Below, in pieces: positions 3,819 through 57,756 of a stretch of DNA of 64,000 bases; position 1 is the stretch's first letter, and every line of letters starts with the position of its first letter. A program made the position numbers and the translations under genes. Below the pieces are notes generated by a model, which saw only the letters and a list, made by a program, of their open reading frames with translations, made no database searches and was not told the origin of the DNA. Origin of the DNA: a virus; the IMG/VR virus record IMGVR_UViG_3300036826_000357, positions 21,017 to 85,016 of that record; one strand, 5' to 3'.

Positions 3819-4292
3819 TCATTCAAAACGCTGACCGTGATACAGGGGGAGACCCCCCTGACAGCATGTGCATTGGAGTGTCCCCGATATGAATGCCGTT
3901 TTCCCTCCATCCGGAAGATTGGTGATATTCAGACCGATGGGTCCGGTACACACACCATCCATGTGTATCACTTCCGGAAGACCGGGAGCAGATTCGCCAT
4001 GCAGTGTATACCCGGAACAACTTCCCTCCATCGCCCAATACGCATCGATGATGCTCTTGCGCACAGAGATGTCGTCTGGGTGTTCGAGCCGAGTGACCAG
4101 GAACGGAGTCGGACAGGTCGTAAACGTTGTGTACGGTCCCGGGCTCGTGGTTGTCGTGGTATCCGCCGCCGCGCAATCCGCATTCTTTAGTTGCTTCTCC
4201 AGTCGAGCACAGCGACGCGCGGAGAAGGCATCCGATGCGAAGGTCGGAGTTACGAAGAGAATCAGAACACAAATCCGAATTAGGTGCTTCAT
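3819..4292 (-). CDS. Secreted Cys-rich protein
   Basis: 157 aa from ATG 4292 behind a perfect AAGGAGG. Residues 1-19 form a Sec signal peptide (MKHLIRICVLILFVTPTFAS). The mature part has about ten cysteines, a Thr-rich linker (DTTTTTSPG) and a C-T-C-C motif near the end, indicating disulfide bonds outside the cytoplasm. It is paired with another exported protein at 4302-5027, nine nt upstream. Role unknown; surface modification or superinfection exclusion are possible. Confidence 0.75.
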   Translation of the reverse strand: MKHLIRICVLILFVTPTFASDAFSARRCARLEKQLKNADCAAADTTTTTSPGPYTTFTTCPTPFLVTRLEHPDDISVRKSIIDAYWAMEGSCSGYTLHGESAPGLPEVIHMDGVCTGPIGLNITNLPDGGKTAFISGTLQCTCCQGGLPLYHGQRFE

Positions 4293-4301
4293 TTTCCTCC
4301 T

Positions 4302-7114: not shown

Positions 7115-7273
7115 CGCATCCTCCTCACCTGCTGGACACGAGGCTGCGGGCGTGGTAGACGGGGCCTTAAGACACTGCCACGTCGCGACCCGCAGCCGCG
7201 ACGAACCATCGCATAGCATAGAGCCTCGGTCTTGAAAAGGATCGGGGCTCTATGTGTTTCAGGGGTCGCTCGC

Positions 7274-7602: not shown

Positions 7603-7632
7603 CGGGCCGCGCGCCCCGCGTCGAGGGCGGTC

Positions 7633-7743
7633 TTAGCCATGGACGTACCATCCCAACGGCGTGGCAATCAGCCAGGCGACGCCCAGGATCAGGGCGCAGA
7701 AGATCACGAGGATCAGGATGCGGGCTCCGTCCAAGCCGTCCAT
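7633..7743 (-). CDS. Small membrane protein, 36 aa
   Basis: ATG 7743 overlaps the TGA of the 7743-8102 gene (TGATG). One TM segment, ILILVIFCALILGVAWLIA, follows an acidic N-terminus (MDGLDGAR). The ~30 nt downstream carry a remnant of the repeated ALDAGRA coding unit (7608-7640), a leftover of the paralogue duplications next to it. Confidence 0.6.
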   Translation of the reverse strand: MDGLDGARILILVIFCALILGVAWLIATPLGWYVHG

Positions 7744-9650: not shown

Positions 9651-9853
9651 CGGCTCCTCCATTTCGGCGCGACCGCGCGCAGCAGCTTCCACCACCACGG
9701 CTCCGGTTCCGGCGTCCGTCCGAACGCACGCCGGGTGATAATCTCCTCGATGGCCTCGCAGAGCGGACAGCCTGCTACCGGCTTGTACGGATCAGGGTCC
9801 AGCCGGGGATGATTGTGCTCCAGCGGTTCGAGAACAATGGTCGGATCGGTCAT
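9647..9853 (-). CDS. Small CxxC protein, 68 aa
   Basis: ATG 9853 with GGTGA upstream; stop overlaps the next start by ATGA. Contains a single C-P-L-C pair near the middle (VAGCPLCEAIEEI) and a Trp-rich tail (PWWWKLLRAV). Small phage proteins with histidine near the N-terminus and one CxxC (here EHNHPRL..CPLC) can form half zinc sites; function unknown. Confidence 0.6.
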   Translation of the reverse strand: MTDPTIVLEPLEHNHPRLDPDPYKPVAGCPLCEAIEEIITRRAFGRTPEPEPWWWKLLRAVAPKWRSR

Positions 9854-9857
9854 AGCT

Positions 9858-10079
9858 TCACCCCGCGCTTCCTCCGGATACCGGTGATGGTCCCTTCGGG
9901 GCATGTCCCAGATGCCAAAAGCCGCAGAAGCCGCACCGATACGCATGCAGCCGCGTCTTCCCACGTTCCGTTAAGCCGTACTGCTGGCGCTGCTGCCGCG
10001 CACGATCCTTTGCTTCCCGCCCACTCGTGAACACGCGCTTGCCATCACAGCCGGATTCCCGTGTGCCGATCTTCCGCAC
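9858..10079 (-). CDS. Small zinc-ribbon protein (CxxC...WHxGH)
   Basis: 73 aa from GTG 10079. The C-terminal half reads AYRCGFCGFWHLGHAPKG: a CxxC followed by WHxGH, a pattern common in short phage and plasmid zinc proteins with a basic helical N-terminus (AKDRARQQRQQYGL). Probably binds nucleic acid. The start overlaps the stop of the preceding gene. Confidence 0.65.
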   Translation of the reverse strand: MRKIGTRESGCDGKRVFTSGREAKDRARQQRQQYGLTERGKTRLHAYRCGFCGFWHLGHAPKGPSPVSGGSAG

Positions 10080-10256
10080 TCACCCTCGTTTCTCCAGCCG
10101 CTTCGCGAGCCGGGTCCGTTCCTCCACTGCCGCGCAGCCGAGCAGATCGAGTCGCCGGAGTTGTCCCAGATCGCCGCGTTGCCGGCGCAGATCTGTCCGA
10201 TGCCTCGCCTCTGCCTGCCGCTGCTGCCGGCGGCGCTCGAAGTTGGCCCGCTTCAT
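10080..10256 (-). CDS. Very basic small protein, 58 aa
   Basis: ATG 10256 overlaps the upstream stop by ATGA. About a third of residues are Arg/Lys (ANFERRRQQRQAEARHRTDL). Likely an extended helix that binds nucleic acid; no family recognised. Confidence 0.55.
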   Translation of the reverse strand: MKRANFERRRQQRQAEARHRTDLRRQRGDLGQLRRLDLLGCAAVEERTRLAKRLEKRG

Positions 10257-10636
10257 GCGGCCGTCTTCTGCGCTTGCTTCACCAGTGCGAGCACCTGCCG
10301 GTGTGTGCGACCCGGTGCATCGTTGTAGTGCACCGCATCGCCAATTTCTGCCGGCTTGTCGGGGGAGACCGCATCGAGTGCATCGAGCAGCCCGAAGTGG
10401 ATCCGCGACGACAGATCCAGTTCGCAGGCCACACGCCCCACGGCACCGACCACGCAAAAGCAGACGGCATCTGGGACACACGGATCCGGAAGGGCCGTCC
10501 CATCGGCCAACCGTGCGGATGCCCTCTGCGTCCACCGATCCTTCGGCCTCAACAAGTCCAGCAACGCCTGGAATGCTCCAGCCAGCGTCTTCGGATACTT
10601 CTTCGTCAGCAACCGATCCTTCTTCAACAGTTTCAT
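10253..10636 (-). CDS. DUF6197-like protein
   Basis: 127 aa from ATG 10636. The order W-T-Q-R-A-S-A-R, then DAVCFCVVGAVGRVA, then FNDAPGRT-like YNDAPGRTHRQVLALVKQA fits the small DUF6197 family found in phages and actinobacteria, for which no biochemical role is established. ATGA overlaps tie it to both neighbours. Confidence 0.6.
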   Translation of the reverse strand: MKLLKKDRLLTKKYPKTLAGAFQALLDLLRPKDRWTQRASARLADGTALPDPCVPDAVCFCVVGAVGRVACELDLSSRIHFGLLDALDAVSPDKPAEIGDAVHYNDAPGRTHRQVLALVKQAQKTAA

Positions 10637-10854
10637 ATGCGTCGATATCGACTGAGCCGGAATTGCTCTGTCGGATTTCCTTTCTGCATCGCGTCTAAGA
10701 GTGTCGATGCGGTGGTGTCGTCATCGTGATAGATCATCAGATGCGGCATCCACGACCCGTCTCGTTCTTGGATTTCGATGACGGGTATTTCCACGATGGT
10801 CTGTTCGCAGAGTGGGCAGCGTTTCGGATGTGGGAACGGGACGAGCTTCCCCAT
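10633..10854 (-). CDS. Small CxxC protein, 73 aa
   Basis: ATG 10854 (TGATG overlap with the upstream gene). An N-terminal HPKRCPLCEQTIVEIPVIEI segment supplies one CxxC; the middle holds HLMIYHDDDT. Looks like a treble-clef-type zinc fragment. Function unknown. Confidence 0.6.
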   Translation of the reverse strand: MGKLVPFPHPKRCPLCEQTIVEIPVIEIQERDGSWMPHLMIYHDDDTTASTLLDAMQKGNPTEQFRLSRYRRI

Positions 10855-11054
10855 CACAGCACCGGCTCCTTCGTGCAGGCATCGTCGGTACAACCGGCCA
10901 ATCGACACGGCAGACACCGATCCCCTTCCCAGAGGTAGCGGGTATTCGTACATCGCGCGCAGGGACAGCCGACCACATCGCGGAGCTTCGATGGTACCCA
11001 ATAGCCGCGAAGCCGCAGATATCCGATCCGCTGCTCCTCGTCGGACATGAGCAT
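10854..11054 (-). CDS. Small Cys-rich zinc-ribbon protein, 66 aa
   Basis: ATG 11054 with AAGGTGGG upstream, immediately after the preceding TAA. Eight cysteines including CPCARC and CLPC suggest two zinc sites. N-terminal half is basic. Role unknown. Confidence 0.6.
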   Translation of the reverse strand: MLMSDEEQRIGYLRLRGYWVPSKLRDVVGCPCARCTNTRYLWEGDRCLPCRLAGCTDDACTKEPVL

Positions 11055-11489
11055 TTATGTGCCCACCTTCGGGTTGTCGCAGTCTTCCGGCGGCAGTAAC
11101 GGCTCAATGGGAATCCTGAATCGCATCGTTTGCCCGGGATACAACGTCATCCCCTCATGATACGGCACGTAGGCTGGGTAATCGCCGTAGATCGGATGAT
11201 GAATGATCCCATCGGCGTCTGGTTGCAGATCGGGGAGCAGGATATGCAGAAATCCCCAGACCAGCGTTCCCGCCAGCAGGAGCACCGCGATGCCACGGAG
11301 CACCCAAGCGCGATGGATCGGCCGCGAGCGCGTGTACTGCCACCAGCCATGAACAAACCCGAAGAGGTTACAGGCGAGCGCGCCAAGTTGGACGGCGAGT
11401 CCCCACGGCGAGTCCACCTGGTACATGAGCCAGGCGAGATACACGAACACCGGGACCAACACGCCATTGACGATCCAGGGATACGCCAT
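11055..11489 (-). CDS. Membrane protein with three TM segments
   Basis: 144 aa from ATG 11489. Hydrophobic segments near residues 5-22, 28-45 and 62-82 (GIAVLLLAGTLVWGFLHILL), followed by a hydrophilic tail of ~60 residues. Coupled by TGATG to the lipoprotein gene upstream. Part of a run of membrane and lipoprotein genes (11055-11999). Confidence 0.65.
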   Translation of the reverse strand: MAYPWIVNGVLVPVFVYLAWLMYQVDSPWGLAVQLGALACNLFGFVHGWWQYTRSRPIHRAWVLRGIAVLLLAGTLVWGFLHILLPDLQPDADGIIHHPIYGDYPAYVPYHEGMTLYPGQTMRFRIPIEPLLPPEDCDNPKVGT

Positions 11490-27146: not shown

Positions 27147-27161
27147 GACCACGTGGTCAAA
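27144..27161. repeat. Perfect palindrome, copy 3 (18 bp)
   Basis: TTTGACCACGTGGTCAAA between the convergent rightward operon terminator and the 3' end of the leftward structural module. Its TGA is the stop codon of the collagen-like gene 27157-27951. Confidence 0.9.
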
Positions 27162-27951
27162 TCGCGCAGCGCACGATCGCGATCAGCGTCGCTTGACTGA
27201 CCTGCGCCGTCGCCGTCACTTCGCTCGTCCAGCCAGTCGCGCCATCCGGTGCCGAGTTACTCAGCAGCAGCTTTTTCTCGTCCTGCGGTTTCGCCGTGAC
27301 AACCATGAAGCCGCCACTGACGACCTGCTCGCCTGCGAGACAGACCGCCGTCGCTGTCAGGGACTCGCCACCCTTGATCGATGTCCCCTCTGCACTCGCC
27401 GTCCGCGTCACCAGAGTGAGACTGCCGCCACCACTCCCGGTCGGTCCGGTCGCACCTGTTGCGCCGGTCGCCCCGGTCGGACCCCTGGCCCCGGTCGGCC
27501 CCATCACTCCCGCCGGCCCGGTCGGTCCCAGAGCCCCGGTTGCCCCGGCCGTCCCGGGCAGTCCCATTGGTCCGGCCGGTCCCGGCGATCCTTGAGCACC
27601 CGGCGTTCCTGGCAGTCCCGGAGCACCTGTCGGTCCCGGCATCCCCGCCGCACCGTCTACCCCGGTCGCCCCGGTCGCTCCGGTTAGCCCAGTCGGCCCG
27701 GTCGGTCCCGGCAGACCATCCCAGCCCATGGTTCCCGGTGGCCCGGGTGGCCCAGTCGGTCCAGGTGATCCCGGTGGTCCCGGTGGTCCAGTCGGTCCCG
27801 GTGGTCCAGGCTCGTTGAGACCGCCAGCCGACTTCTCCCCCTTGCGACATTCCTCCGCCCGGAGAGTCACCAGGCCATTTTTCTTCTGGCAGAAAACTGC
27901 CGCATCAGCCTGAGTCAGCGCGAGCAGCACCAGAAACGCAATCACCGCCAT
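27157..27951 (-). CDS. Secreted collagen-like protein
   Basis: 264 aa from ATG 27951. Signal peptide ([17 protein letters not shown]) then A-V-F-C-Q-K-K with two Cys, a Gly-X-Y region of roughly 40 triplets (residues ~50-175, G-P-P-G and G-A-T-G types), and a C-terminal beta-rich domain ([20 protein letters not shown] ...) with two Cys. Collagen-like phage proteins form triple-helical fibres or spikes. The signal peptide is unusual for a virion part and implies export; the last gene of the structural module. Confidence 0.75.
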
Positions 27952-28415
27952 TTGAGCGCCGCCGGATAACTCGTTGTTGTCCACCGCGACCGACTCGGTT
28001 TTCCCGGTCGCCACCGACGCAAATACTGCCGCCAGGCTTCCTCTTCATCCCCAATCTCCGGCAACGGCTTCTTCTCCAACCACAGCACCGAGCGCGCCAT
28101 GATGCAGGCTAGCGTATCGGCACCCTGCCCAATGGCAATCGCCGTCCGCGCACGACTGATCGGGAAATTCAGTGCCTGTGCCGCCTTCCGGAACGGCGCT
28201 AGCTCTGGCCGCATCTCGAATTCCGCGCAGCCACCAGCTACCTCGAACTGCCACAGACCCCGTGCCGGCCCACCCGATTGTGTTCGATGCGAGAAATGCG
28301 ATTCCTGCATCCCAATCGCAATTAACATCACCACCGCTTCGAGGGAGTCATAGGGTTCCCCGAGCCATTTCAGCGGCGGCTTGATAATCAGGTCCGAGGC
28401 AATCTCAGGAGTCAC
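27942..28415 (-). CDS. Lytic transglycosylase-like peptidoglycan hydrolase
   Basis: 157 aa from GTG 28415. [20 protein letters not shown] followed by LWQFE places a Glu (Q-E-S) in the position of the catalytic acid of lysozyme-like transglycosylases, and [10 protein letters not shown] is the substrate-groove signature. It lies at the end of the tail genes, the usual position of endolysins. No signal peptide. Alternative: a tail-associated muralytic protein. Confidence 0.65.
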
Positions 28416-28563
28416 GACGGCTTATACACTCCCAGCAAATCCAGTCCGGGTAAGGATCCGGGGGATCGCGTAAGTCAATCACCACGAGCTTGACGGTGCA
28501 CTTCGCACAGCGGACTTCGTGGGTCCGTAGCTCATATTCTTCCGGAATGTCGTCCCGACTCAC
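28405..28563 (-). CDS. Small zinc-ribbon protein, 52 aa
   Basis: GTG 28563 overlaps the upstream stop by GTGA. Two Cys pairs, C-A-K-C and C-W-E-C, 28 residues apart, form a likely zinc ribbon ([30 protein letters not shown]). It sits between a tail fibre-like gene and the hydrolase. Confidence 0.65.
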   Translation of the reverse strand: MSRDDIPEEYELRTHEVRCAKCTVKLVVIDLRDPPDPYPDWICWECISRRDS

Positions 28564-29327
28564 ACGTACTCCTCGATCGCGATGCTGGCATCGAAGGTAA
28601 CGAGCCCACGCGCGACAGATACATCATCCGTATCGCGTTGCCCGATCACGAACTGCGACGTATCCCCGAGATTGTCGTACCAGACCACCGGGGATCCCTT
28701 GCCGACATTCACCAGGGTAAACACATCAGTTCTCACCGTGGCATTCTGATAGAGAAACTCCGGGTTACCTGGAGCGCCACGCAAATATGGCGGGCCATCC
28801 TGATTAATCTCGCCGCCGCCACCCTCGTACGTGATCTTCGTCGCCGCCTGCTGAATGATCCATGTCAGCGGTGCCCCGATCGGATCGGTCCACGTCCGCA
28901 CCGTCACCAGAATCAGAATCGTCCCGATTTCCACGAACGTTGTCGCCCCTAAGCTCTCCGCAGAAATACGCACGTACCGAGCGGAGAATGCGGTATCCTG
29001 CCAGAGCTTTTTGACGTTCGTGCGCTGATCGGTCGGAATGGTAATCAAGCCGAGATTCGTCGGCCAGGTACTATTATCGTTCCCAGCCTCGATTCGTAAC
29101 TGCGTCGGTCCAGTCACATCCTGAATCACCACGGCAGCAACTGCCTGTGTCGTCCCCAGATCAAACGTCAGACGCTCCGTATGTGTGCCGCCGGCAGTGG
29201 TGGAACGCCAGACACGTGCCGGCCGCGTTATCAACCCCACATTTGACGCGGGAAACCCTGGCTGTGCCGTCGTTGCCGTAATGAGCGGGGTCGGAAACGT
29301 GGTGGCGACCTTCGGTCCAATGGCCAT
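28560..29327 (-). CDS. Tail protein with galactose-binding-like domain
   Basis: 255 aa from ATG 29327. Residues ~40-135 (RLTFDLGTTQAVAAVVIQDV; RIEAGNDNSTW; SARYVRISAE) resemble F5/8 type C (discoidin-like) carbohydrate-binding beta-sandwich domains. Position after the tail hub protein suggests a host-recognition tip protein. Confidence 0.65.
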   Translation of the reverse strand: MAIGPKVATTFPTPLITATTAQPGFPASNVGLITRPARVWRSTTAGGTHTERLTFDLGTTQAVAAVVIQDVTGPTQLRIEAGNDNSTWPTNLGLITIPTDQRTNVKKLWQDTAFSARYVRISAESLGATTFVEIGTILILVTVRTWTDPIGAPLTWIIQQAATKITYEGGGGEINQDGPPYLRGAPGNPEFLYQNATVRTDVFTLVNVGKGSPVVWYDNLGDTSQFVIGQRDTDDVSVARGLVTFDASIAIEEYV

Positions 29328-29329
29328 GG

Positions 29330-32300
29330 CTACGTCACCAGTACCGGGTACGGTCCAAAGGTTCCAATTAGCCGATCTTGAATGTCGTACATGCGGAATG
29401 TGTAGTAGTACGGATTCGGGTCAGTCGCCGGAACCACATCCACCATTGTAAGCAGCGGCAGCGTGTAATCGGAGGGCGTAGTCTCGGCCAGTAATGCCGG
29501 CGTACTCGTGGCTGGTCCCTGCCGCCATATCCGCATCGTTCTGAAGTACCGTGGCAACGGCTCGCGTTGCGTAATCGTCACCTTCATCTGGGTAATCATC
29601 GCAGCGCCGATGGCATCCTGCGTTTTCGGCACCACACCCCAGAACATGTTGCCGACATCATTCACCTGCCACGGACGATTGATGTACGGATTCTGCGGAT
29701 AGCTCCAGATGAGGTTGGAATATGTCGCCCCAACTAAGAAAGAGGTTGCATCGATTCCTGAACCTCCACCGACAAGACTGCCGTACTGCGCGGCATATCG
29801 CTCCGTTCCGGAGCCCGCATTAACCCGCATCCGTGTCAGGAAATCGACATTGGAAATCTCCGCTCCTGAAGCGAGCCCTGCACCAGCAAATCGCATCTTC
29901 ACAGCCGCATTCGCATCACCCGCGATGTACGTTGCATCAGCATCGGGCGGATCTTCATCGATACACTCAGGATTCGTGGCTGGTGGCGGAGGCGTACCAC
30001 CCGGAATGAACCCATGGTTAAAGACTGGATTCGGTGGCGGATCGATTTCCTGTACCGGATACCAATTCGTGACACGGCCAGGAATTATCGTCACTGTGAC
30101 AGTCAGACCATCCACCCGACTTGTCGCTGCCATATTCCCGAATGCCGTTGCTGGCCCCGGAGGCGCGGACGGATCCGCCGGCAGTGGCAACGGATCGTAC
30201 ACATAATCCGCTGCCGTGTAGGGTGTGACCGTGACCTGATTCGCCGCCGACACTCGATTCGACCGCCGGACCCGGGCATCGAATGCCGTCCCAGACCGGA
30301 GTGTTACCTCGATCACTCTCCCCGGGACGATATTCCTTGCCTCGTGTCCCAGCGCTAACTCGATGGTTGCATCATCAGTCTTCCGGCGCTTCGCCCGATA
30401 GCTCCGAATGATATCCGCTGTGACGGGATCGTAGACTAACTGTGTCTGTACTTCCTCGATCTGCTGTCCGACTCCATTGACATCCCCATCGGCAGAACTG
30501 AGCAGGAAGTTGATGACGCGTCCTGTCTCATCCCGCACAGGTTGAAATCTGACCCGTGTCTTGCCGATCGTCTCAGCCAACGATGCGCGAGCTATCCCAC
30601 CGACCTGCGCGATATTCCGCCACGGATCACCAATGGAGAAGGCAGCGTCTGCAATGGAAACTGCCTGGTCGACAGCAGCCGTGACCAGTCCCGCCGATGT
30701 CAACGAATAGCGCAACCCGCGAAATGTACGGAAGTTGTCCATGACTCCATCGGAGCCATCGATGGTTGCAGCATCGGTAAATGCTCCGTCACAGCGGAGC
30801 CCGTGATTTTCAATGCCGGCCGCATCATCTTCTGCGGTATCCCAACTCGTCGGATCGAGTGCCATCCCGGATACGTCGAGTGCTTCCCGCAGACACGTCA
30901 CGAAATTCCGCCGTCCGAGATAGTGTGCACGGCGGTAATACGCGAGGCCGCGTGCCCCACTACTGAATCGGACTGGCCCAAGATCACCTTGCGCACCCGC
31001 CCCGATGGTCGAACTACCACCAAGAATCATCGGATCGGTCGCTTCTGGATCGATCGAGTCTCGCCCGTACTTCACATATCCCCGCCCCGATCGAGGCGTA
31101 GACTGAATCAAGACGCCATTGATGTAGAGGTCGACAGTCGTTGCACCGACATCGACCCCAATGTGCATCCACGTATTCAAGGTAACGTTGGCAGTTTGGA
31201 GTGTAAGTGTCAGTGGACTTGCCCACGTCGCTGGATTTGTCGTGATATCGATGGTGAATTTGATCTTGTTCAGATCGTGGAATAACTGCCAGCCATCCCG
31301 GGGTCCATCGACAATCGCCCCGGTCTCATCCGTCCGCAGCAGGAACCAGACTTCGAGCGAGAACTGATGCAGCGCATACGCATCCCGCGCTGCTACCGAC
31401 TCTGCCATCATCGCTCGCAACGCATTGCAGCGGATGGCTCCATTCCCGTACCGAGATATGCCTGCTACCAGATGACTGGTATTCGCCGTATTCCCAGCCA
31501 TCGCGATGGCATGATGACCGCCGATGTCATCGTAGAGCCCGCGTTGCCAGTCCCATTCACTGACTACCCGCGCATCCACATCCGCCATGAGCCGCTGCCC
31601 ATCGACTACCAACGAACTGACTCCGGCATCCTGCCCGCGAGGATCACGTCCCAGCCGAATAGCCGTCTGATATCTGCCCCCCTGCAAATACGTTCGCTTG
31701 ATGACCTGATAATCCCCTGCTCCGAGTGGTAATCCACCTTGCCGAACTGCCTGCACATGCAGGTTCCCATGTAACACCACAAAGTCGTACAGATCGGCGA
31801 TATTCGACGGTAACCCGCCGAAGATGATTAACTGCCCACTCCCATCGGTCGAAATGGTAATCGGCGCATTCGTGAATGCTTCAGACTCCTTCGCTGCCAA
31901 CTGAAACGTATCGTCATCCAGCACAATCACCCAATAATCCTTGTCAACCACCAATCCTGTGGGCAGCGTCCCATTCACTGCCATCACATGGTACGGTCCA
32001 TTCCCGGTTTGGAAGCCATGTGCGCGCGAACTGAACGAGTCATTCGTGGCCAGGCCGGTGAATCCAATCCGGATTTCCTTGTTCTCGTCGTTCCGCGCCC
32101 GCGCGTATCTGCCCGGGAGTCCCCGATTCACGCCCCACCCATGCGGTACGACGGAGCCGAGACCACCACTCGGCGATCCGTCAGCCGGCGCATACGGATG
32201 CTCCAGCGAATTAATCACGTAGGCAGGGAATACCTCGTTGACTTTGGCAGGATCGAGTGCCGCACAGAGTAACTGAATGGTCTGATCGTCATGTGCCACA

Positions 32301-32776
32301 GCCGCAATGCGGCCCACGGCGATGTTCAGTACCGTCGTATCCGTCAGCACATCGTAGGAATGCACGTTGACCAACCAGCCCCGGACTTCCGTCGATCCGA
32401 TCCAGTTCGTGATGTCCGGCGTGGCAGTCTCGATTGCCCGTAGCCGCAGCCGCACCGTGAACTGCTGCTGCTGAAGATTCCCACCGAAGGAATCCGGCTC
32501 CTCAAGCGTAATGGAAATCGACTCGACTACACGTTTCTCGAAGAGTGCCGGCCCGAATGCCGTGGGATATACGTCCCGCGATGCAAACCGCAGTGGCGGT
32601 AAGGACAAATCCACCGGGAGATTGAGTGTGGTCGAATCCTGGTAGTGAATCTCAACGAGAAAACAGAGACTCGGAGCCGTCAGTAACGGATTCGCTGCGA
32701 CGGGAAGTAATCCACCACCGTCCGCAATACCCCAATCGAATTCTCCCCAGCCCGGACCCTCACCCCATCCAGCCAT
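29330..32776 (-). CDS. Tail hub/tip protein with LamG-like domain
   Basis: 1148 aa from ATG 32776. Order: N-terminal hub region (1-180); the AHGFQTGNGPY module (residues ~250-320, also found in two head-region proteins); a LamG-like jelly roll (residues ~460-600, with HQFSLEVWFLLRTDETG, NTWMHIGVDVGATTVDLYIN); a region typical of baseplate/tail-associated receptor proteins (~620-900); and a Pro-rich, Ser/Thr-rich C-terminus. The modular build and position downstream of the tape measure indicate a tail tip or host-specificity protein. Confidence 0.7.
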   Translation of the reverse strand: MAGWGEGPGWGEFDWGIADGGGLLPVAANPLLTAPSLCFLVEIHYQDSTTLNLPVDLSLPPLRFASRDVYPTAFGPALFEKRVVESISITLEEPDSFGGNLQQQQFTVRLRLRAIETATPDITNWIGSTEVRGWLVNVHSYDVLTDTTVLNIAVGRIAAVAHDDQTIQLLCAALDPAKVNEVFPAYVINSLEHPYAPADGSPSGGLGSVVPHGWGVNRGLPGRYARARNDENKEIRIGFTGLATNDSFSSRAHGFQTGNGPYHVMAVNGTLPTGLVVDKDYWVIVLDDDTFQLAAKESEAFTNAPITISTDGSGQLIIFGGLPSNIADLYDFVVLHGNLHVQAVRQGGLPLGAGDYQVIKRTYLQGGRYQTAIRLGRDPRGQDAGVSSLVVDGQRLMADVDARVVSEWDWQRGLYDDIGGHHAIAMAGNTANTSHLVAGISRYGNGAIRCNALRAMMAESVAARDAYALHQFSLEVWFLLRTDETGAIVDGPRDGWQLFHDLNKIKFTIDITTNPATWASPLTLTLQTANVTLNTWMHIGVDVGATTVDLYINGVLIQSTPRSGRGYVKYGRDSIDPEATDPMILGGSSTIGAGAQGDLGPVRFSSGARGLAYYRRAHYLGRRNFVTCLREALDVSGMALDPTSWDTAEDDAAGIENHGLRCDGAFTDAATIDGSDGVMDNFRTFRGLRYSLTSAGLVTAAVDQAVSIADAAFSIGDPWRNIAQVGGIARASLAETIGKTRVRFQPVRDETGRVINFLLSSADGDVNGVGQQIEEVQTQLVYDPVTADIIRSYRAKRRKTDDATIELALGHEARNIVPGRVIEVTLRSGTAFDARVRRSNRVSAANQVTVTPYTAADYVYDPLPLPADPSAPPGPATAFGNMAATSRVDGLTVTVTIIPGRVTNWYPVQEIDPPPNPVFNHGFIPGGTPPPPATNPECIDEDPPDADATYIAGDANAAVKMRFAGAGLASGAEISNVDFLTRMRVNAGSGTERYAAQYGSLVGGGSGIDATSFLVGATYSNLIWSYPQNPYINRPWQVNDVGNMFWGVVPKTQDAIGAAMITQMKVTITQREPLPRYFRTMRIWRQGPATSTPALLAETTPSDYTLPLLTMVDVVPATDPNPYYYTFRMYDIQDRLIGTFGPYPVLVT

Positions 32777-32779
32777 AGA

Positions 32780-33106
32780 TCACGGATTCTTCGGTGGGCA
32801 TTGCGATAGCAGGATTTTACACGATCCCAGATCGATCTGCGGATCACGCGGACGTAACTTCTTCCGTTTCTCGGTAAGCTCATTCAGCTTTGTGTTACAG
32901 GGGTCGAGGAGCGTACAGGGTCCGGGACGCCCGGCACACATCTGAAGCGCCGCTTGGACACACTCGTCAACACGAATCTGCTCCAGAAGGATCTGCTCCT
33001 CCAATTCCAGACCCCAGACCTGCGCACCACAGACATCGTAGACACGCTGGCACACACCCTCATTAAACGTCGCGGCCAGGAGAATCCCTGCGAGAATCAT
33101 CATCAC
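32780..33106 (-). CDS. Secreted Cys-rich protein, 108 aa
   Basis: Starts near 33106 (MMMILAGILLAATFNEGVCQ), a Sec-type signal peptide. The mature chain has eight Cys and an alpha-helical, heptad-like core (EEQILLEQIRVDECVQAALQ), implying disulfide-stabilised helices. Located between two tail-fibre genes; exported accessory of the virion or host surface. Confidence 0.65.
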   Translation of the reverse strand: MMMILAGILLAATFNEGVCQRVYDVCGAQVWGLELEEQILLEQIRVDECVQAALQMCAGRPGPCTLLDPCNTKLNELTEKRKKLRPRDPQIDLGSCKILLSQCPPKNP

Positions 33107-36100
33107 ATCACCGTGTCAAAGCTAACATAGAGAGCACACGAAGCAGCAGTAGCAGCCAACGATGTACCGACCACGGAGACCTGTTTCATGGTAAAGCGAT
33201 CCCCAAGTGCAAATGCAATCGGTGCACTCGCTGAACCCGCTGCTGGTGTACACTGCTGAACACCCGCAGTCATCTGACAGAGCATGGTTGTATCAGAACT
33301 GCCACCTGCACTGCCTCCAGTACCCTTCCGCACAGTAAACGTGCGCGTGGACGTACCACCGGGAGTATCACTCGCGGTGCAGGTCATCTTCCAAATAGTT
33401 CCTGCTCCAACAATCACACTCCGGAAGTTGTTCTCCGTCGCATTGTTGTCGTTTCCCCACAACGAGCTAAACAACGTCTGCGCCGTGGTCAGCAGAATCG
33501 GGAAGTCAGTCCGCGCGATCGAGCCATTCCGCAACGAGATCGATCCGAACGATCCCTGGTAGTTGGCAATCGAGCCCACAGATGCTGGTGTCGGCCACCG
33601 ATAAAAGCCATTGTCTGCGACATCAACGTTAACGACATTCGCTGTACCCGCAGTCGGGAACTTGATTGCCGTTGAATTCGTGCTGTTCGATCCATCGAAA
33701 ATATTGCTGACGATCTGGCTGCCAGTAATCACCATATTGCCAAGAGATTGTGGCCCAACCATGTCAACTCCAATGATACTGTCTACAGTACCACCAGGAA
33801 ACACGGTATTCAGCGCAATATTCAGATTCGTGTGCGGGCTGGTAGCGCCGTAGTCAGACAAGCGGAAAAACGCAGTCGGCGTCCGAGCCAAGCAGCTACC
33901 AGCAGTACAGCAATATTTGCCCGCCTCAGATCCAGTCTGACAACAGGTGATAGCACCACCAGGGCAACCACCTAATGTGCCGGTACTACACGTCGCACCA
34001 CCATTACACGTAGACGTGGCCGTCTCACATAATTGTCCCGCCGGGGTCGTACCACACTGCTTCACAGGCTGCTGCGACGGCATGAACACCACATTCTTTG
34101 CGTACGTGTTATGCGTCGTCCCACAACCACCACCAGTACATCCCGCATGACCAATCCACGCGAATGCCGGCTCTGGTACACACTTGAAGGTCACCGAGCA
34201 GGTACCACAATCCGCGTCGCTATTGCACTGATTCCCACGGTTTGGAACAGCGCAGGATGGATCACATGTCGTCGTCGGCCGCACGGAATTACTTGAGTTA
34301 CAATAGTTCCCATCTACGAAGACACCTGCACCACCGAGATTGAAGCAGGCTCCTGCCTGCGACACAATACGATTCGCAACGTACTGTGTATTATTCAATG
34401 ATCCACTCGGCGCGTTTTCAGCCGTGATGCCACGCCACCCACCTTGAATATGATTCAGCCCAACACGATTCTGCGATCCCGCTGAGCCCAGCTTTATACC
34501 GATCCCATGAGCAGCCGGTAATTGAGTCCCCTGCGAAAACCCTATCCTATTATTGGAAATCAACGCATTCGCCGTATCATGATTGCTGATTCCGATCTGG
34601 TTACCAATCACACCATTATCCTTGATCGTGTTATCAGCGATGAGAACATCAGTTCCGGTGCTCTCGATGCCTATTCCATTCCCACCAAGCTCTTTGATCG
34701 TGTTACTGACAATGTGCGAATTCACGGCGGTCGAATCGATCCCCTTCGCATAAGACTGCAAGCTATTACTCCCCAGCTTATTGGCAATCACTCCTGCATC
34801 GTCACCAGTCAGCGAAATCCCCGTGCATCCAGTCCCAAGATTCAGCGCCTGCGATTTAGCGACCTGTCCGTATGTACTGATAACGAAGCCACAGGCAGCC
34901 GTCCCAGGCCCATTGAGAGATGGAGGCCACACCGTCGACTCATCAATACGTGTCTGCGCAGCAGCATTGAATGAGAACGACTTCCCACGAGCGTACGTAC
35001 GAATCAGCTGAGAGTCAGACCCGACCTTCATACCGTAAAACACATTCGTGGTCGGCTGCGTGTTGTTCTTGTTGGCTGCTGCGAACGCATTGTTCGCAGC
35101 ACCGTAACAGCACGTTCCACCATTCAACCCTGCCGACAGACACCGAGAATCTGTCGGTGTCGCGAATGGTGACGTACAGTCCGTCAGTTCCCGCGCTGCA
35201 TTCACATTGACTAGTGTCGACTGATTTCCCACACTAAGTGAGAAGCCCGAAGAACTGTTCGGCGTGACGAAATGATCGTAGATGCTGACATTCGTCAGCT
35301 TCGCATTCGTGGTTGATGTCAAATCCAGCGGGATGATATTCCCCGGTCCCGATGGCGAGAGCGGAGCACCAGTACACGATCCACCACCCGTCGTGCAATT
35401 CATCTTCGACAGATCGCAGGTACCCGATATACAGTCACCATTCACATCACATCGTGCTCCTGGCAATGTCGACCCCGTAGAACATTCCTGCCGGCACGGC
35501 TTCCCAGGATTCGAGCCACCCACACAGCGCTGGAACGGATCGGCCTGAGCCGCCCAGATCGAGCAGTTCTCAATGAAAATGTCGCTCGATGCTCCTCCAC
35601 TATCCTTCAGCATCGTGTAGGTCTGTCCCGCAGTCGGTGCGAAACACGTTGTTGCCGTACACGCAGCACCTGCTCCTGCTCCGAAACTGCTCACACACGT
35701 TCCAGAGCCAGGGCAATCTGCGTTCGTATTACATGTCGCACCACCGAACGGAGCGAAGGCACTCGCACTCGCCCCGAATGTACCCGTCGAACAATACTGC
35801 TGCTGCGCGAAGAAGCCGGCACTCTGATCTGCACACACAATGTGCACGTTGTTCGGGATGAGAATGGACGCTGCTCCTGCACCAGGAGACTTCAACCCAA
35901 GCTTGCAGCCACCCGGTATGTAGATAGTCGCTCCAGTCGACCCCAGCGCGTTCAGGGCTGCCTGCACTCCAGCCGTGGAATCTGTCAGGCCGGAACAATC
36001 AACTCCAGGCGTTGCCGTGATACTGGTCGTAGAAATGGTATCCCACTGCAATACATCGCCGGTATGCCAGACAAGTACATCACCATTGATCGGGACATCG

Positions 36101-37344
36101 GATGGCAACTGATACGTCCGATTGGCTGTGAGACTGGCAGTCGCCGGAGCCTTCAACCCGACAAAGTTCGAGTTATCGGTATCCCGCCAGCGAAACTCCC
36201 CACCACCCTGAACAGTCGGTGTGGAGCCACTTGAAAAGGTCACTCCACCACTGCCACCAACAGCAATAGCATCCGTCGTCCCAGTGCTATCACGGATGAC
36301 CACGTTGTCCCCGACGAGAAACCGAGCAATACCACCCTCATCATGGATCGAACAGGTCGAACTGACACTGCCATCACCATTGCACCGGAACCGCGTTGCG
36401 CCGTCGTTATCACGGATAACGGTATCGCCACTGTTGTTCACTGAAAACCGCGTTGCAGCTCCTCCATTAGTAATCACGCGGAACTGTCCAGTACCGGGTG
36501 CTAACTGAACGTCGAAGAGACCGTTGGTAGCAGAATTAATGCGGATCGACGCCAAGGCGAAATTCAATCCCGTGCTCTGCGAGACGGTAAATTCATCGTT
36601 GTTGTTCGTATCGTTGCCAACTGACCATACGTTGTCACCGGCAAAACGAATCTCTGCATTCACCGTTGCCGGCGTTGCCGATGTCACTATCAGCGGATTG
36701 GAGACTCCACCACCAGTTCCACACGGCTGCCAGGCAAACGTCGTCCCGGTCGCCTCATACGTTAGACAGTAGCCATCGACCTGTCCCGCCGACTTGATCG
36801 CATTCGGCGTCACGAGGTCGTTGGCCAGACTGCATGTACCGCCGATCACACCCAGATCGGAAATCGTGCACGTCGCATTGTCGATAACGTTCCCCGTCGT
36901 CCCGTTGAACCTCGCAATCTGATTGTCAACATACGTCCCCGCTAGACTCTGCACATCAGCAGCAGAATTCCCGAAACAGCCAACTGTCGTCCAAACCTGG
37001 CTGTCATTGATGTACGTCAAACACGTTGTTCCCGGCGTTCCCGTCCCTGCCGTGCACGCAGTCGTCGTGCAGTCAGTGACAATGTAGACCTTCGACAGCG
37101 TCACACTCGATGCAGTCGGCCGGTTCACAAACAGACCTGCTTGGAACCGACGCGACTCGTCCTGATTCGCCCAGTTCCAGTAATACTGCGGATACGATGC
37201 TGCCGGTACGCCAACACCGACCTTCGGAATGCGTAGAATGTCGGTAAACGACACCGTGCCAGGACTGGGATCCGGGTCCGCTCGCGCGTACCCAACCACC
37301 AGCACCATCACCAGCAGGATAAGCCCCCTAAATCGGGTCCACAT
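33103..37344 (-). CDS. Large beta-helix protein with signal peptide (tail spike/fibre candidate)
   Basis: 1413 aa from ATG 37344 (starts at 37356 and 37377 are possible). Residues 1-26 (MWTRFRGLILLVMVLVVGYA) look like a signal peptide. A middle region (~residues 450-750) is Cys-rich with C-N-T-N-A-D-C and C-D-V-N-G-D-C motifs, and residues ~800-1100 show a parallel beta-helix pattern (VISNNRIGFS-type, ALISNNRIG). The beta-helix suits carbohydrate binding or cleavage. The Sec signal and cysteine content are unusual for a phage fibre and suggest host-derived origin or export. Confidence 0.65.
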   Translation of the reverse strand: MWTRFRGLILLVMVLVVGYARADPDPSPGTVSFTDILRIPKVGVGVPAASYPQYYWNWANQDESRRFQAGLFVNRPTASSVTLSKVYIVTDCTTTACTAGTGTPGTTCLTYINDSQVWTTVGCFGNSAADVQSLAGTYVDNQIARFNGTTGNVIDNATCTISDLGVIGGTCSLANDLVTPNAIKSAGQVDGYCLTYEATGTTFAWQPCGTGGGVSNPLIVTSATPATVNAEIRFAGDNVWSVGNDTNNNDEFTVSQSTGLNFALASIRINSATNGLFDVQLAPGTGQFRVITNGGAATRFSVNNSGDTVIRDNDGATRFRCNGDGSVSSTCSIHDEGGIARFLVGDNVVIRDSTGTTDAIAVGGSGGVTFSSGSTPTVQGGGEFRWRDTDNSNFVGLKAPATASLTANRTYQLPSDVPINGDVLVWHTGDVLQWDTISTTSITATPGVDCSGLTDSTAGVQAALNALGSTGATIYIPGGCKLGLKSPGAGAASILIPNNVHIVCADQSAGFFAQQQYCSTGTFGASASAFAPFGGATCNTNADCPGSGTCVSSFGAGAGAACTATTCFAPTAGQTYTMLKDSGGASSDIFIENCSIWAAQADPFQRCVGGSNPGKPCRQECSTGSTLPGARCDVNGDCISGTCDLSKMNCTTGGGSCTGAPLSPSGPGNIIPLDLTSTTNAKLTNVSIYDHFVTPNSSSGFSLSVGNQSTLVNVNAARELTDCTSPFATPTDSRCLSAGLNGGTCCYGAANNAFAAANKNNTQPTTNVFYGMKVGSDSQLIRTYARGKSFSFNAAAQTRIDESTVWPPSLNGPGTAACGFVISTYGQVAKSQALNLGTGCTGISLTGDDAGVIANKLGSNSLQSYAKGIDSTAVNSHIVSNTIKELGGNGIGIESTGTDVLIADNTIKDNGVIGNQIGISNHDTANALISNNRIGFSQGTQLPAAHGIGIKLGSAGSQNRVGLNHIQGGWRGITAENAPSGSLNNTQYVANRIVSQAGACFNLGGAGVFVDGNYCNSSNSVRPTTTCDPSCAVPNRGNQCNSDADCGTCSVTFKCVPEPAFAWIGHAGCTGGGCGTTHNTYAKNVVFMPSQQPVKQCGTTPAGQLCETATSTCNGGATCSTGTLGGCPGGAITCCQTGSEAGKYCCTAGSCLARTPTAFFRLSDYGATSPHTNLNIALNTVFPGGTVDSIIGVDMVGPQSLGNMVITGSQIVSNIFDGSNSTNSTAIKFPTAGTANVVNVDVADNGFYRWPTPASVGSIANYQGSFGSISLRNGSIARTDFPILLTTAQTLFSSLWGNDNNATENNFRSVIVGAGTIWKMTCTASDTPGGTSTRTFTVRKGTGGSAGGSSDTTMLCQMTAGVQQCTPAAGSASAPIAFALGDRFTMKQVSVVGTSLAATAASCALYVSFDTVM

Positions 37345-38278
37345 AACCCCTCGCATACAATGCCACAGTGTTTCCACCGCCCGTCCCGTTCCACTGCGCC
37401 CGAAATATCTGTGTTGAATCCACTTCTATATCGATTACATACGACACCAATATGGGCGAGTTTGTGTGGATCATCCCCCAGGTACCAGTACCAGCCGTTC
37501 CATTCAGTACGTTACACTGCTGGCCAGCATTCGCATTCGCAATCGGCACCACAAAAATCGTGGCTATGCGCGATGTCGGCGGAATGTACTTCTTGACGTC
37601 GACATTTTGCACCGTCGAGACAGTATTCGTTACATTAACGCTGTAGCTTGAATTCGCATCTGTACCGTCCATTCGATAATACACATGGTCATCTTCCTGA
37701 ATGAACTGAAGGAAGTTGCTCGACGCATTGTTCCGAACGGCTCCAACTCGGACCCATTTCGTGTACCCCGTCACTGTCGCATGCGTGAGTACCAACCCCG
37801 CCCGTGTGTTCTGCTTCGAGAGTAGGAAGCCGATGTTCCCGGCCGCATTCACACCGACCCAGACATAGTACCAAAAATTGGCATCCTCTGGATCGGCACC
37901 GAGATTATCAAACCCATTCAATCCATTGACCGTAATATCAACTGATCCACTAACAGCCTGTACGATCGTACCTTCGATCCCGAGTAGGTCTGCCGTAATG
38001 TCGAGCTTACTGTTCGGCGCAGCATTGTTATTGACAATCCGCAGTGCCCGGCGTCCCACACGAGAATTCAGTATCAACGCACTCTGTGCCGCCTGAATCC
38101 GTGCACCGACATCGGCATACACAGTTCCATCCACCGACGAAATGTGCGGATTCGCCCCCAACGTGGCGAGTGCTGCGAACAACTCCTCGACAACCTGTAG
38201 CCAATCTGCCGGCGTCACCTGCGCATCCTTCAATGCCGCAGAAGCAGTCGGAACAATCGGTGGATATTGCGCCGCCAC
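37328..38278 (-). CDS. Minor tail protein, 316 aa
   Basis: ATG 38278, right after the tape measure gene stop. Helical start (ALKDAQVTPADWLQVVEELF) then beta-rich (GSVDITVNGLNGFDNLG; YTKWVRVGAVRNNASS). Distal tail or fibre-attachment role is inferred from position; no clear domain. Confidence 0.6.
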   Translation of the reverse strand: MAAQYPPIVPTASAALKDAQVTPADWLQVVEELFAALATLGANPHISSVDGTVYADVGARIQAAQSALILNSRVGRRALRIVNNNAAPNSKLDITADLLGIEGTIVQAVSGSVDITVNGLNGFDNLGADPEDANFWYYVWVGVNAAGNIGFLLSKQNTRAGLVLTHATVTGYTKWVRVGAVRNNASSNFLQFIQEDDHVYYRMDGTDANSSYSVNVTNTVSTVQNVDVKKYIPPTSRIATIFVVPIANANAGQQCNVLNGTAGTGTWGMIHTNSPILVSYVIDIEVDSTQIFRAQWNGTGGGNTVALYARGYVDPI

Positions 38279-46897: not shown

Positions 46898-47965
46898 CTA
46901 ACTGTATGTAAATACCACCTCGTCATCGCCAGCATCAGTTGCTGCAACGCAACTGAATGGCAATTCCATGGTCAAGACACCGTTCCGATCACCATACGAC
47001 GGTAGACGGAATTTCGCCTTCGGGACGTTGACCGTTATCACTTGTCCCGGCTGTGTAGTCTGATCGCCGATCACGACAGTTAACGCGCCGGTTGTACCGT
47101 TCTGCCACCGGAGCCACCAGTCAGTTGGCGACGATGCCGTTCGAGCGATCATTTCCGGATTACACGTTCCCTGCGGATTCCGGCTCCCGAGAATCGATCC
47201 AATGACACCCGTGGTCTGCTGCATGTCCGGCCGATACGTGACCTGGTTGTTCATGTTGACCGTCACCGACTGCAACGTCAGGCTGGTTGACGCTGATCCG
47301 TGCAACACCACCGTCGTCGCGCTGCCGTACTTCAAGACCGGCAACGGGAAGAGCGACTGATCCAAGAATCCCGGTGTCGGCATGGTCACTTCCACGAAGC
47401 CACCGGAGTTCGCCGTCGCGACGGCATCGTAGACTCCCGTAAACGTCCACTCCTGCCGGCCAAACTGCCCCGACTCCATGATGGTGTTCACGTTGCCACG
47501 ACACCCACGAATCCGGTGCAACATGCCATCGAGGTTGGCGTAGATCGTACAGGTTTGCAGGTTGCTCGATACCGGCTTGTAAATCACCGACGAGCTATTC
47601 GCGGCATAGGTCGGTGAGAATGCACAGGCCCGCATGAGCGGATCCTGCCGCAACATGTTGGTCGATGTGTTGTCGAATACCGCCGTGGACCGGCCACGCA
47701 ACTCGGTGGTAAACGCAATCTCACACCAGCGATTGCCGACAACGTGTCCTTGCGGCGAGAGAGTCGACAGAACTATGTTCCGATCGATTTCCTCAGCCTG
47801 CGGGGTAACCGTCAGTGCGGAGACAAGGACCGCGTTAACCAACGCTGCCGCCGTATACGAAGCACCAGGCGTCCCGCCGGTATCGATAGAATCGGTACCT
47901 TCCGTCGCCTCGACCTTCGCGAGAATGAGTGCGCGGCTAGTGAGCTTCAACCCTGTCTGTGGCAT
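46898..47965 (-). CDS. Major tail tube protein
   Basis: 355 aa from ATG 47965. Beta-rich, Thr/Ser/Gly-rich with the look of phage tail tube proteins (VEATEGTDSIDTGG; QFGRQEWTFTGVYD; VTVNMNNQVTYRP). It lies between the connector genes and the chaperone/tape measure genes, the usual place. Polymerises into the tail tube. Overlaps the glycosyltransferase gene by 29 nt. Confidence 0.75.
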   Translation of the reverse strand: MPQTGLKLTSRALILAKVEATEGTDSIDTGGTPGASYTAAALVNAVLVSALTVTPQAEEIDRNIVLSTLSPQGHVVGNRWCEIAFTTELRGRSTAVFDNTSTNMLRQDPLMRACAFSPTYAANSSSVIYKPVSSNLQTCTIYANLDGMLHRIRGCRGNVNTIMESGQFGRQEWTFTGVYDAVATANSGGFVEVTMPTPGFLDQSLFPLPVLKYGSATTVVLHGSASTSLTLQSVTVNMNNQVTYRPDMQQTTGVIGSILGSRNPQGTCNPEMIARTASSPTDWWLRWQNGTTGALTVVIGDQTTQPGQVITVNVPKAKFRLPSYGDRNGVLTMELPFSCVAATDAGDDEVVFTYS

Positions 47966-48989
47966 GTATGCCTTCCCCCTGTTCGATTTCCCTGAGCACC
48001 GCCATCAACCGCCGCCCCGCCTTCAACCAGGAAAAGCCTTGAGCATGCCGCCAGGCGCGAAGACCAATGCGTTTCGCCTCGGCCCAATGCCGCATCACCC
48101 ACTCCATCTTCCGCACTAAATCATCTACCCGAGCCACGTCCACTGTGACAAGCAAAGCCTGGTTCTTCTGCACTAGCTCCGGGTCTTTACTCTCCTGTGC
48201 TGACAGTTCATCCATGGCAAGAAGCGGCTGACGCTCAGACCGAATTGGGATACAAACGGAATCGTTGGCAAATGCTGTGATTCCGGTATTCAAGATCGTC
48301 AAACACGGCAGCCCGGTTGCCATCGCTTCGAGCAATGGTAATCCCCATCCCTCTCCACAACTCGGAAAGACAAATGCATCCGCTTCCGCGTATAACGCGA
48401 CCATACCGTCGTCATTGAGCAGCCGGGAATCGACAATCACATTCGCTCCTTGCACCACATCCCGCCGCTGATCCGTAGTCTTCAAATACAACTCGCAGTC
48501 GTCTCGATTGATAAATCCACCTTCCTCCCACGCCGCCAGAACTTCCTTCCAGCCCTTCCGCAGATTATGGGCACCACACCAGAACCATCGGAATGGCTTA
48601 TGACGAGGACGCGGGCGATTGACTCCAACGAATTTGTCCGTATTCACTCCCAACGGCGAAACATAGATTGGAGTCTCGCAGACTTCTCGAAATACCTGCG
48701 CGTTCCATTCCGTTGGCGTAATCACCGCATCTGCCTGCTCAAGAGACTCTGGGAAATACCCGGGCATGGTCTCATTCTCATACATCGTGAACAGGCAATT
48801 GATTTTCCCGAACCAGGGGAAGAATCGACGCGGCATCTGCATGTGTACCGCCAGCTTCGCTTTCCGACTCTCCACCGCGCCGGCTGCTTGCAACGCCGCT
48901 CGTAAGCACCAGTTGGCGCGGGTGTAGCCGACAGCGTTGCCAGACATCGCTGTCTGCTCGATCACCCAGATGTAGCTCAGCGGGTCCAT
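47937..48989 (-). CDS. Glycosyltransferase (GT4-like)
   Basis: 350 aa from ATG 48989, overlapping the methyltransferase by 13 nt. Residues ~95-115 ALEQADAVITPTEW, then VSPLGVNTDKF, HNLRKGWKEVL, and FVFPSCGEGWGLPLLEAMAT, the E-x7-E-type donor site of GT-B group-1 glycosyltransferases. Transfers a sugar from an activated nucleotide donor; acceptor unknown. With the FkbM methylt­ransferase it likely decorates a virion protein or host surface glycan. Confidence 0.8.
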   Translation of the reverse strand: MDPLSYIWVIEQTAMSGNAVGYTRANWCLRAALQAAGAVESRKAKLAVHMQMPRRFFPWFGKINCLFTMYENETMPGYFPESLEQADAVITPTEWNAQVFREVCETPIYVSPLGVNTDKFVGVNRPRPRHKPFRWFWCGAHNLRKGWKEVLAAWEEGGFINRDDCELYLKTTDQRRDVVQGANVIVDSRLLNDDGMVALYAEADAFVFPSCGEGWGLPLLEAMATGLPCLTILNTGITAFANDSVCIPIRSERQPLLAMDELSAQESKDPELVQKNQALLVTVDVARVDDLVRKMEWVMRHWAEAKRIGLRAWRHAQGFSWLKAGRRLMAVLREIEQGEGIHATDRVEAH

Positions 48990-49729
48990 GCCAGCAGGTA
49001 CCAATGCGATCCCAGATCGCCCAGCTTCGCCCACTGATATCCCGCTCCCGCCAACGTGGTTTTCACCTGATCGGCAATGTGCGCGCCGTAATACCGATCA
49101 TGCATTTCCACGAGGATACGAGGATGCTCGTCCCGCAGTATCCGATTCATCCCCCGCAACACATGCGCTTCTGCGCCTTCCACATCGATCTTGACAAAGC
49201 CGACTGGCGATTCCTGCACAATCTCATCGAGTGGCTGCGCCTCCACCTGAAGCTTCGTCTCCCGATTCACGACCGTCACACCGCCGGAATACGAATGTGG
49301 CTCTGCTCCGAACAGAACCGGCGGTAATCCGACTGCCTCGTCATGCGTCGGCGTATCCATGAACACCATCGCCGGCTCCGACCACGCCGCCACCTGCGCA
49401 ATCCGTACCCGATGCGCCACACCATTCGACGCCACATTCGACCGCAACGCCTCCGCCGTATCCCCATGCGGCTCGACGGCTACGACCATCAGTCCATCCA
49501 CCGCTGCGCGAATCGACCAGTGGCCGACATGCGCACCGACATCCACGAAGATGCCGCCGTACTCCTTGCAAATCTCCCACTCCTCCAAGAACGCACCAAG
49601 TAACTGCGCCTCGTGGGAACCCTCCATCAATGCATCGTGGTACCGGCCAGGACGCTCGACGTACTTCAGATGCGTCTTGATTTCCGCAGCACCAGGCCCT
49701 GCCTGATACAACCCATCATCTTTCCCCAT
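48977..49729 (-). CDS. FkbM-family methyltransferase
   Basis: 250 aa from ATG 49729. SAM-binding motifs F-V-D-V-G-A-H-V-G at residues ~60-68, V-E-P-H at ~90, and the FkbM signature V-G-F-V-K-I-D-V-E-G-A-E near residue 175, then R-I-L-V-E-M-H. O-methylates sugars or small molecules. Coupled by overlap with the glycosyltransferase; the pair interrupts the order tail terminator - tail tube. Confidence 0.85.
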   Translation of the reverse strand: MGKDDGLYQAGPGAAEIKTHLKYVERPGRYHDALMEGSHEAQLLGAFLEEWEICKEYGGIFVDVGAHVGHWSIRAAVDGLMVVAVEPHGDTAEALRSNVASNGVAHRVRIAQVAAWSEPAMVFMDTPTHDEAVGLPPVLFGAEPHSYSGGVTVVNRETKLQVEAQPLDEIVQESPVGFVKIDVEGAEAHVLRGMNRILRDEHPRILVEMHDRYYGAHIADQVKTTLAGAGYQWAKLGDLGSHWYLLAWTR

Positions 49730-53984: not shown

Positions 53985-54905
53985 TCAGGCCAGGTTGATG
54001 ATCTTCACCACTGCCGGCTCTTCCTCATATACGAAGTCGAGTCGCATTGTGAGCACGATGATCCACACCCGGGCGGTAATGTCCTTGTCCGTCTCGACCA
54101 GGACGTTCCGCTGAATGCCAATCACCATGTTCTTCGGGTCGGTGAAGAGACCCTTATCTGCTGGCATGAGCGCCACCGGAATGACCGGCACGCCAAAGGC
54201 AGTGATGGCATTGTTCGTCGTCACCGCCGAGTCGCCACCAGTCGTCTGCCGGTTTCCGAAGGAATCGCGCCACTCAAGCTCGTTGTCGATGGACACGTAG
54301 AAGCGCATTGCCGCCCGGTTCCGTAGATACCGATCCGGCATGGCCTTGATCGCGTTCTTGAACACGGTCTTGTTGATGGATGTCGAGCCGGCATCGGACA
54401 CGTTGGAAATGGCACGCACGAGCGCACCATCCACCAGGTCCAGATACGGATCAGCCGCATCGAGCGTGGTGTCTCCGAGAAGGATTAGCTCCTCGATATC
54501 GAGTGCCGCCCGCTCTGCCATCATCTCCATGATCGTATCGGCAAAGCCGTTCCGCTCGATGTTGTCTTCCAACACATCGTACGGAATCCGAACTTCCGCG
54601 ATCACTTCCTTGGTGGTCAGCGTGACCTTCTCAGTCGTGGGCTTCGACCGATCTGACTCAGTCAATGCCACGTTCGACACACCCGGCTTCAAGATGCGCG
54701 TGCCGAATCCGACCTTGTTGATTTCGCGTTTCGGCGCGTTCATGAAGACCGTCCGCGCCTCCCGCACGATGGTCGGCTGATCGATGAGCTTGCGGAAGAA
54801 TTGATTCTCCTGCTCCGGATTCAGGTAGCCGCCATTGGTTGTCAGGTCACTGACAGCAATGGTCGCCTTCTGAACGAGTTCCTTGTTGCTAACCGTGCTA
54901 CCCAT
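53985..54905 (-). CDS. Major capsid protein (HK97 fold)
   Basis: 306 aa from ATG 54905. Segments FGTRILKPGVSNVALTESDR, TLTTKEVIAEVRIPYDVLED, MMAERAALDIEELILLGDTT and AFGVPVIPVALMP are typical of HK97-type capsids, here with a short or no delta domain. Assembles into the icosahedral shell. Followed by palindrome copy 4. Confidence 0.85.
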   Translation of the reverse strand: MGSTVSNKELVQKATIAVSDLTTNGGYLNPEQENQFFRKLIDQPTIVREARTVFMNAPKREINKVGFGTRILKPGVSNVALTESDRSKPTTEKVTLTTKEVIAEVRIPYDVLEDNIERNGFADTIMEMMAERAALDIEELILLGDTTLDAADPYLDLVDGALVRAISNVSDAGSTSINKTVFKNAIKAMPDRYLRNRAAMRFYVSIDNELEWRDSFGNRQTTGGDSAVTTNNAITAFGVPVIPVALMPADKGLFTDPKNMVIGIQRNVLVETDKDITARVWIIVLTMRLDFVYEEEPAVVKIINLA

Positions 54906-57747: not shown

Positions 57748-57756
57748 CCGTTTTTG

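Follow-up and report, generated by a model that had tools for sequence, protein, structure and literature searches.

A siphophage tail operon encodes a large, cysteine-rich protein with a predicted Sec signal peptide and the architecture of a tail fibre or tailspike. Judged by sequence, its Sec export is well supported, because signal peptides are kept across homologues in which the stem has been replaced and because the cysteines are conserved. Exported, cysteine-rich fibre-like proteins appear from their sequences to be a recurrent variant in uncultured phages, and one that is apparently undescribed. Virus particles are normally assembled in the cytoplasm; our findings suggest that in some phages part of the fibre that recognises the host is built outside it. 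We propose that this 1413-aa protein is the distal part of a fibre made in two compartments, an explanation to which, taken as a whole, we give an even chance.

A cysteine-rich protein with a signal peptide among the tail genes

The virus record comprises 85,016 bases, and the window analysed here is the 64,000-nt stretch covering its positions 21,017–85,016 (Table 1; coordinates are those of the window unless the record or a locus is named). Its minus-strand genes follow the usual layout of head, tail, tape measure and tail tip. The capsid protein, which is also akin to those of other 80–100 kb siphophages, identifies the phage by homology as a siphophage related to Stenotrophomonas phage DLP_5; relatives of the capsid protein, the tail tip and the 316-aa protein were not found in viral contigs. 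The head-tail operon also contains glycosyltransferase (group 1) and FkbM methyltransferase genes (47937–49729), and ARAGORN reported a 4-base anticodon (cttg) in a tRNA-like gene (57674–57749) adjoining the phage tRNA cluster.

Table 1. Genes of the window referred to in the text
Feature	Position	Strand	Remarks
157-aa exported Cys-rich protein	3819..4292	-	9 Cys; signal score 13.8
Collagen-like protein (PF01391)	27157..27951	-	probable signal peptide from Met at 27951
phrog_3108 protein	27942..28415	-	SLT-like (weak, under Pfam cut-off)
F5/8 type C (discoidin) domain protein	28560..29327	-	no Cys; no signal peptide
1148-aa tail-region protein, LamG-like lectin domain	29330..32776	-	6 Cys; no signal peptide
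108-aa Cys-rich protein	32780..33106	-	overlaps 1413-aa gene by 4 nt; hydrophobic start
1413-aa exported fibre/tailspike-like protein	33103..37344	-	predicted signal peptide, residues 1-22 (ARA^DP); 58 Cys
316-aa protein	37328..38278	-	1 Cys; no signal; directly upstream of exported gene, 17-nt overlap
Tape measure protein, 2522 aa	38279..45847	-	0 Cys; no signal (control)
Major capsid protein	53985..54905	-	55% identity to Stenotrophomonas phage DLP_5
214-aa exported SGNH/GDSL hydrolase	60525..61169	+	PF13472, 2.6e-12; carries signal

The 1413-aa gene sits between tape-measure-proximal genes and the tail-tip gene. An earlier note on this DNA had claimed that its product begins with a signal peptide, and the claim holds. 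Taking 37344 as the start (an in-frame ATG at 37356 is the alternative), the protein opens with the 22 residues MWTRFRGLILLVMVLVVGYARA^DP, which include two Arg, a 13-residue uncharged hydrophobic core and ARA ahead of the predicted cut, that is, the positive n-region, hydrophobic core and small residues at -3/-1 of a Sec/SPase-I substrate. Signals were scored, after a gene call covering the whole record, with an in-house rule set (not SignalP) that itself demands a small residue at -1. These rules recognised nine of nine textbook E. coli signals, with scores of 11.9–16.0; the 1413-aa protein scored 16.2, a value that none of 2000 shuffled versions of its N-terminus reached. Among internal Met positions in the phage's proteins, used as a chance control, 1 of 236 scored at least 11 and none at least 13, and three of 96 other N-termini in the record scored 11–12, with none above. 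In eight reference phage records (121 annotated CDS, mostly structural), a single convincing signal peptide was found, on a fibre-position protein. Run in this rule-based form, the signal-peptide prediction that the note had proposed as a check places both the 1413-aa protein and the 157-aa protein above the chance controls.

Cysteine makes up 4.1% of the 1413-aa protein, against 25 of 7340 residues (0.34%) in structural-operon proteins without signals, and record-wide it amounts to 3.5% in signal-bearing proteins vs 0.9% in the others (rank test, p=0.002). In the alignment with the closest homologue, 40 of 46 aligned cysteines are identical vs about 45% of other residues (p=3e-9). Enriched and conserved in this way, the cysteines are those expected of a disulfide-bonded secreted protein.

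The protein consists of a stem and a long C-terminal domain (residues ~447–1413), and its gene occupies the place of a tail fibre or tailspike in the tail module, close to those for the tape measure and the tail tip. It matched no tail-fibre family in PHROGs and no Pfam family, its predicted mature N-terminus has no virion-anchoring domain recognised in these two collections, and a PDB profile search matched nothing. AlphaFold, given a two-sequence alignment of the C-terminal domain, returned a pLDDT of 34 and no usable model. Because neither AlphaFold nor Pfam gave anything usable, the label 'beta-helix' attached to this protein rests on the sequence pattern and on the NosD match of a gene neighbouring its closest homologue.

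The other proteins that the earlier note had listed as exported fared unevenly. The collagen-like protein has its hydrophobic start at Met22 (27951) of the listed ORF, with a site ADA^AV and a score of 13.6 (shuffle frequency 0.013), and it probably carries a signal if translation begins there; the core is not preceded by Lys or Arg, and it is uncertain which start codon is used. Its four cysteines lie in the domains flanking the collagen stretch. The 108-aa protein is indeed rich in cysteine (8 in 107 aa), and its supposed signal peptide was not upheld, the rule-based test finding neither a positive n-region nor an acceptable SPase site. Of the proteins at 3819–5027, that at 3819–4292 stands, and that at 4302–5066 has a weak score (11.4) and an ambiguous start. 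The SGNH/GDSL hydrolase lies amid tRNA genes, with surface polysaccharide as a possible target. To the left of the window, the record (L003) encodes two further large Cys-rich proteins that probably carry signal peptides, one of 428 aa with 16 Cys (record 6818–8104, minus strand) and one of 490 aa with 14 Cys, a PKD domain and a weaker signal score of 9.5 (record 9650–11122, plus strand).

Homologues and related fibres in other phages

The sole close homologue found in IMG/VR belongs to L002, a phage record of 48.6 kb that includes a portal-like head-tail adaptor. Its product (L002:8411-13012) aligns with residues 445–1413 of the window protein at 41% identity; the stems are unrelated, and it has its own clean signal peptide, MRGFVTSVLVLLLASVAFA^DP. 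A third homologue (L015:10619-14818), which shares part of the C-terminal domain, begins MAWLIRTALFAILVVANSAWA^LN, and has 37 Cys in at least 1400 aa (the contig end cuts the gene); terminase, portal and head-morphogenesis genes are nearby. That the stem has been replaced yet the signal retained suggests selection for export. Searching with a profile of the three homologues brought up no further member, and the genome collection, with the patterns used, held no relative of the 1413-aa protein. The gene preceding the L002 homologue encodes a second exported protein of 755 aa, in which there are 29 Cys and a match to the NosD beta-helix. The L002 phage has three signal-peptide genes in one cluster (L008:13887-14780, L008:15151-17418 and L002:8411-13012), and the two large exported proteins of this cluster have similar mature N-termini (DSLQHVFPGGIG / DSQLHYFPGGLS).

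We gathered 85 phage loci by searching with the stem module (LPVANGGTNL..DDNVMVGNGTTWQSKAL) of the fibre from L002. The relatives include 54 distinct signal-less proteins, mostly ordinary Cys-poor fibres with a median of 0.12% Cys, and, after curation, 12 fibres with a signal peptide, L015 and L046 being counted among them by inspection. Eight of the 12 hold 1.2–3.8% Cys; four (L029, L031, L039 and L040) are Cys-poor. Cysteine content is higher in the 12 than in the 54 (p=7e-4), a statistic that overstates independence because the sequences are partly related and the search was seeded with a signal-bearing protein. Most signal-peptide cases have Ala at -1 (ARA, AFA, AWA, ALA, AVA, VHA, AHA), all six fibres with a DDNVMVG motif are signal-bearing, and the exported fibres of L012 and L019 have their first mature residues in common.

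The neighbours of the exported fibres are phage head and tail genes (portal, terminase, capsid, baseplate wedge, tail fibre). The complete circular genome MW202444, of a phage from a spring metagenome, encodes a 1253-aa signal-peptide protein in fibre position; beside that gene lies a small gene annotated 'sep15/selm redox domain' (L018:17349-17594), without a Pfam match. The phage records searched for exported fibres yielded only metagenome-derived genomes or ordinary signal-less fibres. Bacterial secreted surface proteins also contain the stem module. The DDNVMVG fibre module occurs, at 66% identity, on a 3.3-kb contig (L098) that was binned as Candidatus Andersenbacteria and may be a misbinned phage fragment.

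A proposed fibre made in two compartments and its alternatives

For the exported tail-region proteins the earlier note had offered three readings: decoration of the host surface, assembly of part of the fibre outside, or genes taken from a host, with products that coat the virions once these are released. The gene order best fits the second, on account of short genes found upstream of exported fibres. In L019, a Cys-free protein of 241 aa (L019:5572-6297) matches the N-terminal domain of phrog_12796, a tail-fibre family (8.9e-24), and a full-length member of that family is encoded just before it. In L046 the gene before the exported one encodes a 182-aa protein (L046:8911-9459) whose matches are to N-terminal parts of tail-fibre families (7.1e-9). 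In L012, L019 and L016 the short ORF runs 4 nt into the exported gene that follows it; the short proteins of L012 and L016 are Cys-free and without an assigned family, and the C-terminal part of that of L012 resembles the L019 stub. The scheme is not universal, because the called gene before the exported fibre in L002, L013, L015 and L017 is itself exported or a lipoprotein. From its position, the 316-aa protein, which had no match in PHROGs, Pfam or viral contigs, is a candidate for the virion-bound stub in this phage.

A stub gene followed by an exported gene suggests a virion anchor made in the cytoplasm and an exported distal part. The nearly Cys-free stub would be made in the cytoplasm and remain with the tail, and the distal part, here the 1413-aa protein, would pass through Sec and be cut by signal peptidase I. 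In the periplasm or outside, it would then form many disulfide bonds as it folds, and at lysis or afterwards would meet virions and dock onto the stub, serving in fibre- or tailspike-like receptor binding and possibly degrading polysaccharide. P22 tailspikes and T4 fibres are attached late, and their attachment is possible in extracts; by analogy, it is chemically plausible that fibres or spikes made separately dock at a late stage. That such proteins form a recurrent class in tailed phages, with a cytoplasmic stub and a Sec-exported, oxidatively folded receptor-binding part attached at or after lysis, is a tentative generalization, to which we give somewhat less than an even chance.

The main rival, and a serious one, is that the exported proteins are tail-operon morons and not virion parts, decorating the surface of the infected host or being released free; they would then serve to mask receptors or exclude superinfection, to let infected cells adhere, or to modify surface polysaccharide. 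The same phage exports proteins from outside the tail operon, the SGNH hydrolase among them; lambda lom is likewise exported and encoded between tail genes (PMC12309495), the fibre-stem module is shared with bacterial secreted surface proteins, and the 1413-aa protein lacks a recognised anchoring domain at its mature N-terminus. Yet its size, its stem and C-terminal architecture and its position between tape measure and tail tip are typical of fibres or spikes, and the upstream tail-fibre N-terminal domains of L019 and L046 would, without a distal part, have no partner. We regard surface decoration as possible, at a probability well short of even.

A hydrophobic N-terminus might alternatively stay unprocessed, as a membrane anchor or hydrophobic contact in an ordinary fibre assembled in the cytoplasm. 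Prior expectation favours cytoplasmic assembly, because most ordinary phage fibres lack signals. However, the presence of SPase-like sites, most of them with Ala at -1 (the rule set itself requiring a small residue), speaks against this reading, which would also leave the enrichment and conservation of cysteine unexplained, and we consider it improbable. Least probable, to the point of being very doubtful, is that the genes were recently acquired from a host, or that host DNA was mis-binned as virus. The terminal domains of the collagen-like protein and the Cys-rich motifs may resemble those of bacterial secreted proteins, and the NCBIfam matches of the collagen-like protein are collagen-like adhesins, far under the cut-off and confined to the collagen stretch. 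Against this, the genes are tightly packed and overlapping within the tail operon, two other phages hold homologues near portal, terminase or capsid genes, and a complete circular phage record has such a gene at the fibre position. For the 1413-aa protein, the earlier note's suggestion of host-taken genes finds no support as far as a recent origin is concerned, the patterns used having retrieved no relative from the genome collection. Host contamination was rejected on the gene neighbourhood.

Comparison with known systems

In the open-licence papers searched, no description of Sec-exported or signal-peptide tail fibres was found. A survey of DGRs reported that phage target proteins are without the signal peptides typical of bacterial ones, and took their absence as support for a phage over a bacterial origin (PMC6199706); in another, most cellular target clusters bear signal peptides or transmembrane domains (PMC8144416). 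This rule would be broken if phage structural operons recurrently held fibre genes whose products have a signal peptide and are rich in disulfides. Such a fibre class would also indicate an assembly step outside the cytoplasm, would explain how disulfide-stabilised receptor-binding proteins could be used by phages, and would predict phage infectivity that depends on the host Sec and disulfide machinery.

Ordinary tail fibres and tailspikes with a VANGGT stem resemble the proteins described here in large size and tail-operon position and, among the relatives, in the stem module and in stub families (phrog_12796 and others). They differ in having a cytoplasmic virion-anchor start, in lacking signal peptides and in being mostly Cys-poor (54 in our control set). 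Lambda lom and other tail-operon morons are likewise exported proteins encoded among tail genes (PMC12309495), but lom is an outer-membrane beta-barrel, whereas the 1413-aa protein is large, Cys-rich and fibre-like and is followed by further tail genes. Phages are known to use Sec for SAR endolysins and spanins (PMC4640515, PMC12633290), late gene products which, unlike the present protein, act in lysis via the envelope and have no fibre architecture. Finally, the bacterial surface proteins targeted by cellular DGRs combine, like these fibres, a signal peptide with ligand-binding domains; there, however, the signal peptide marks a bacterial or cellular protein, and here it stands on fibres of phages.
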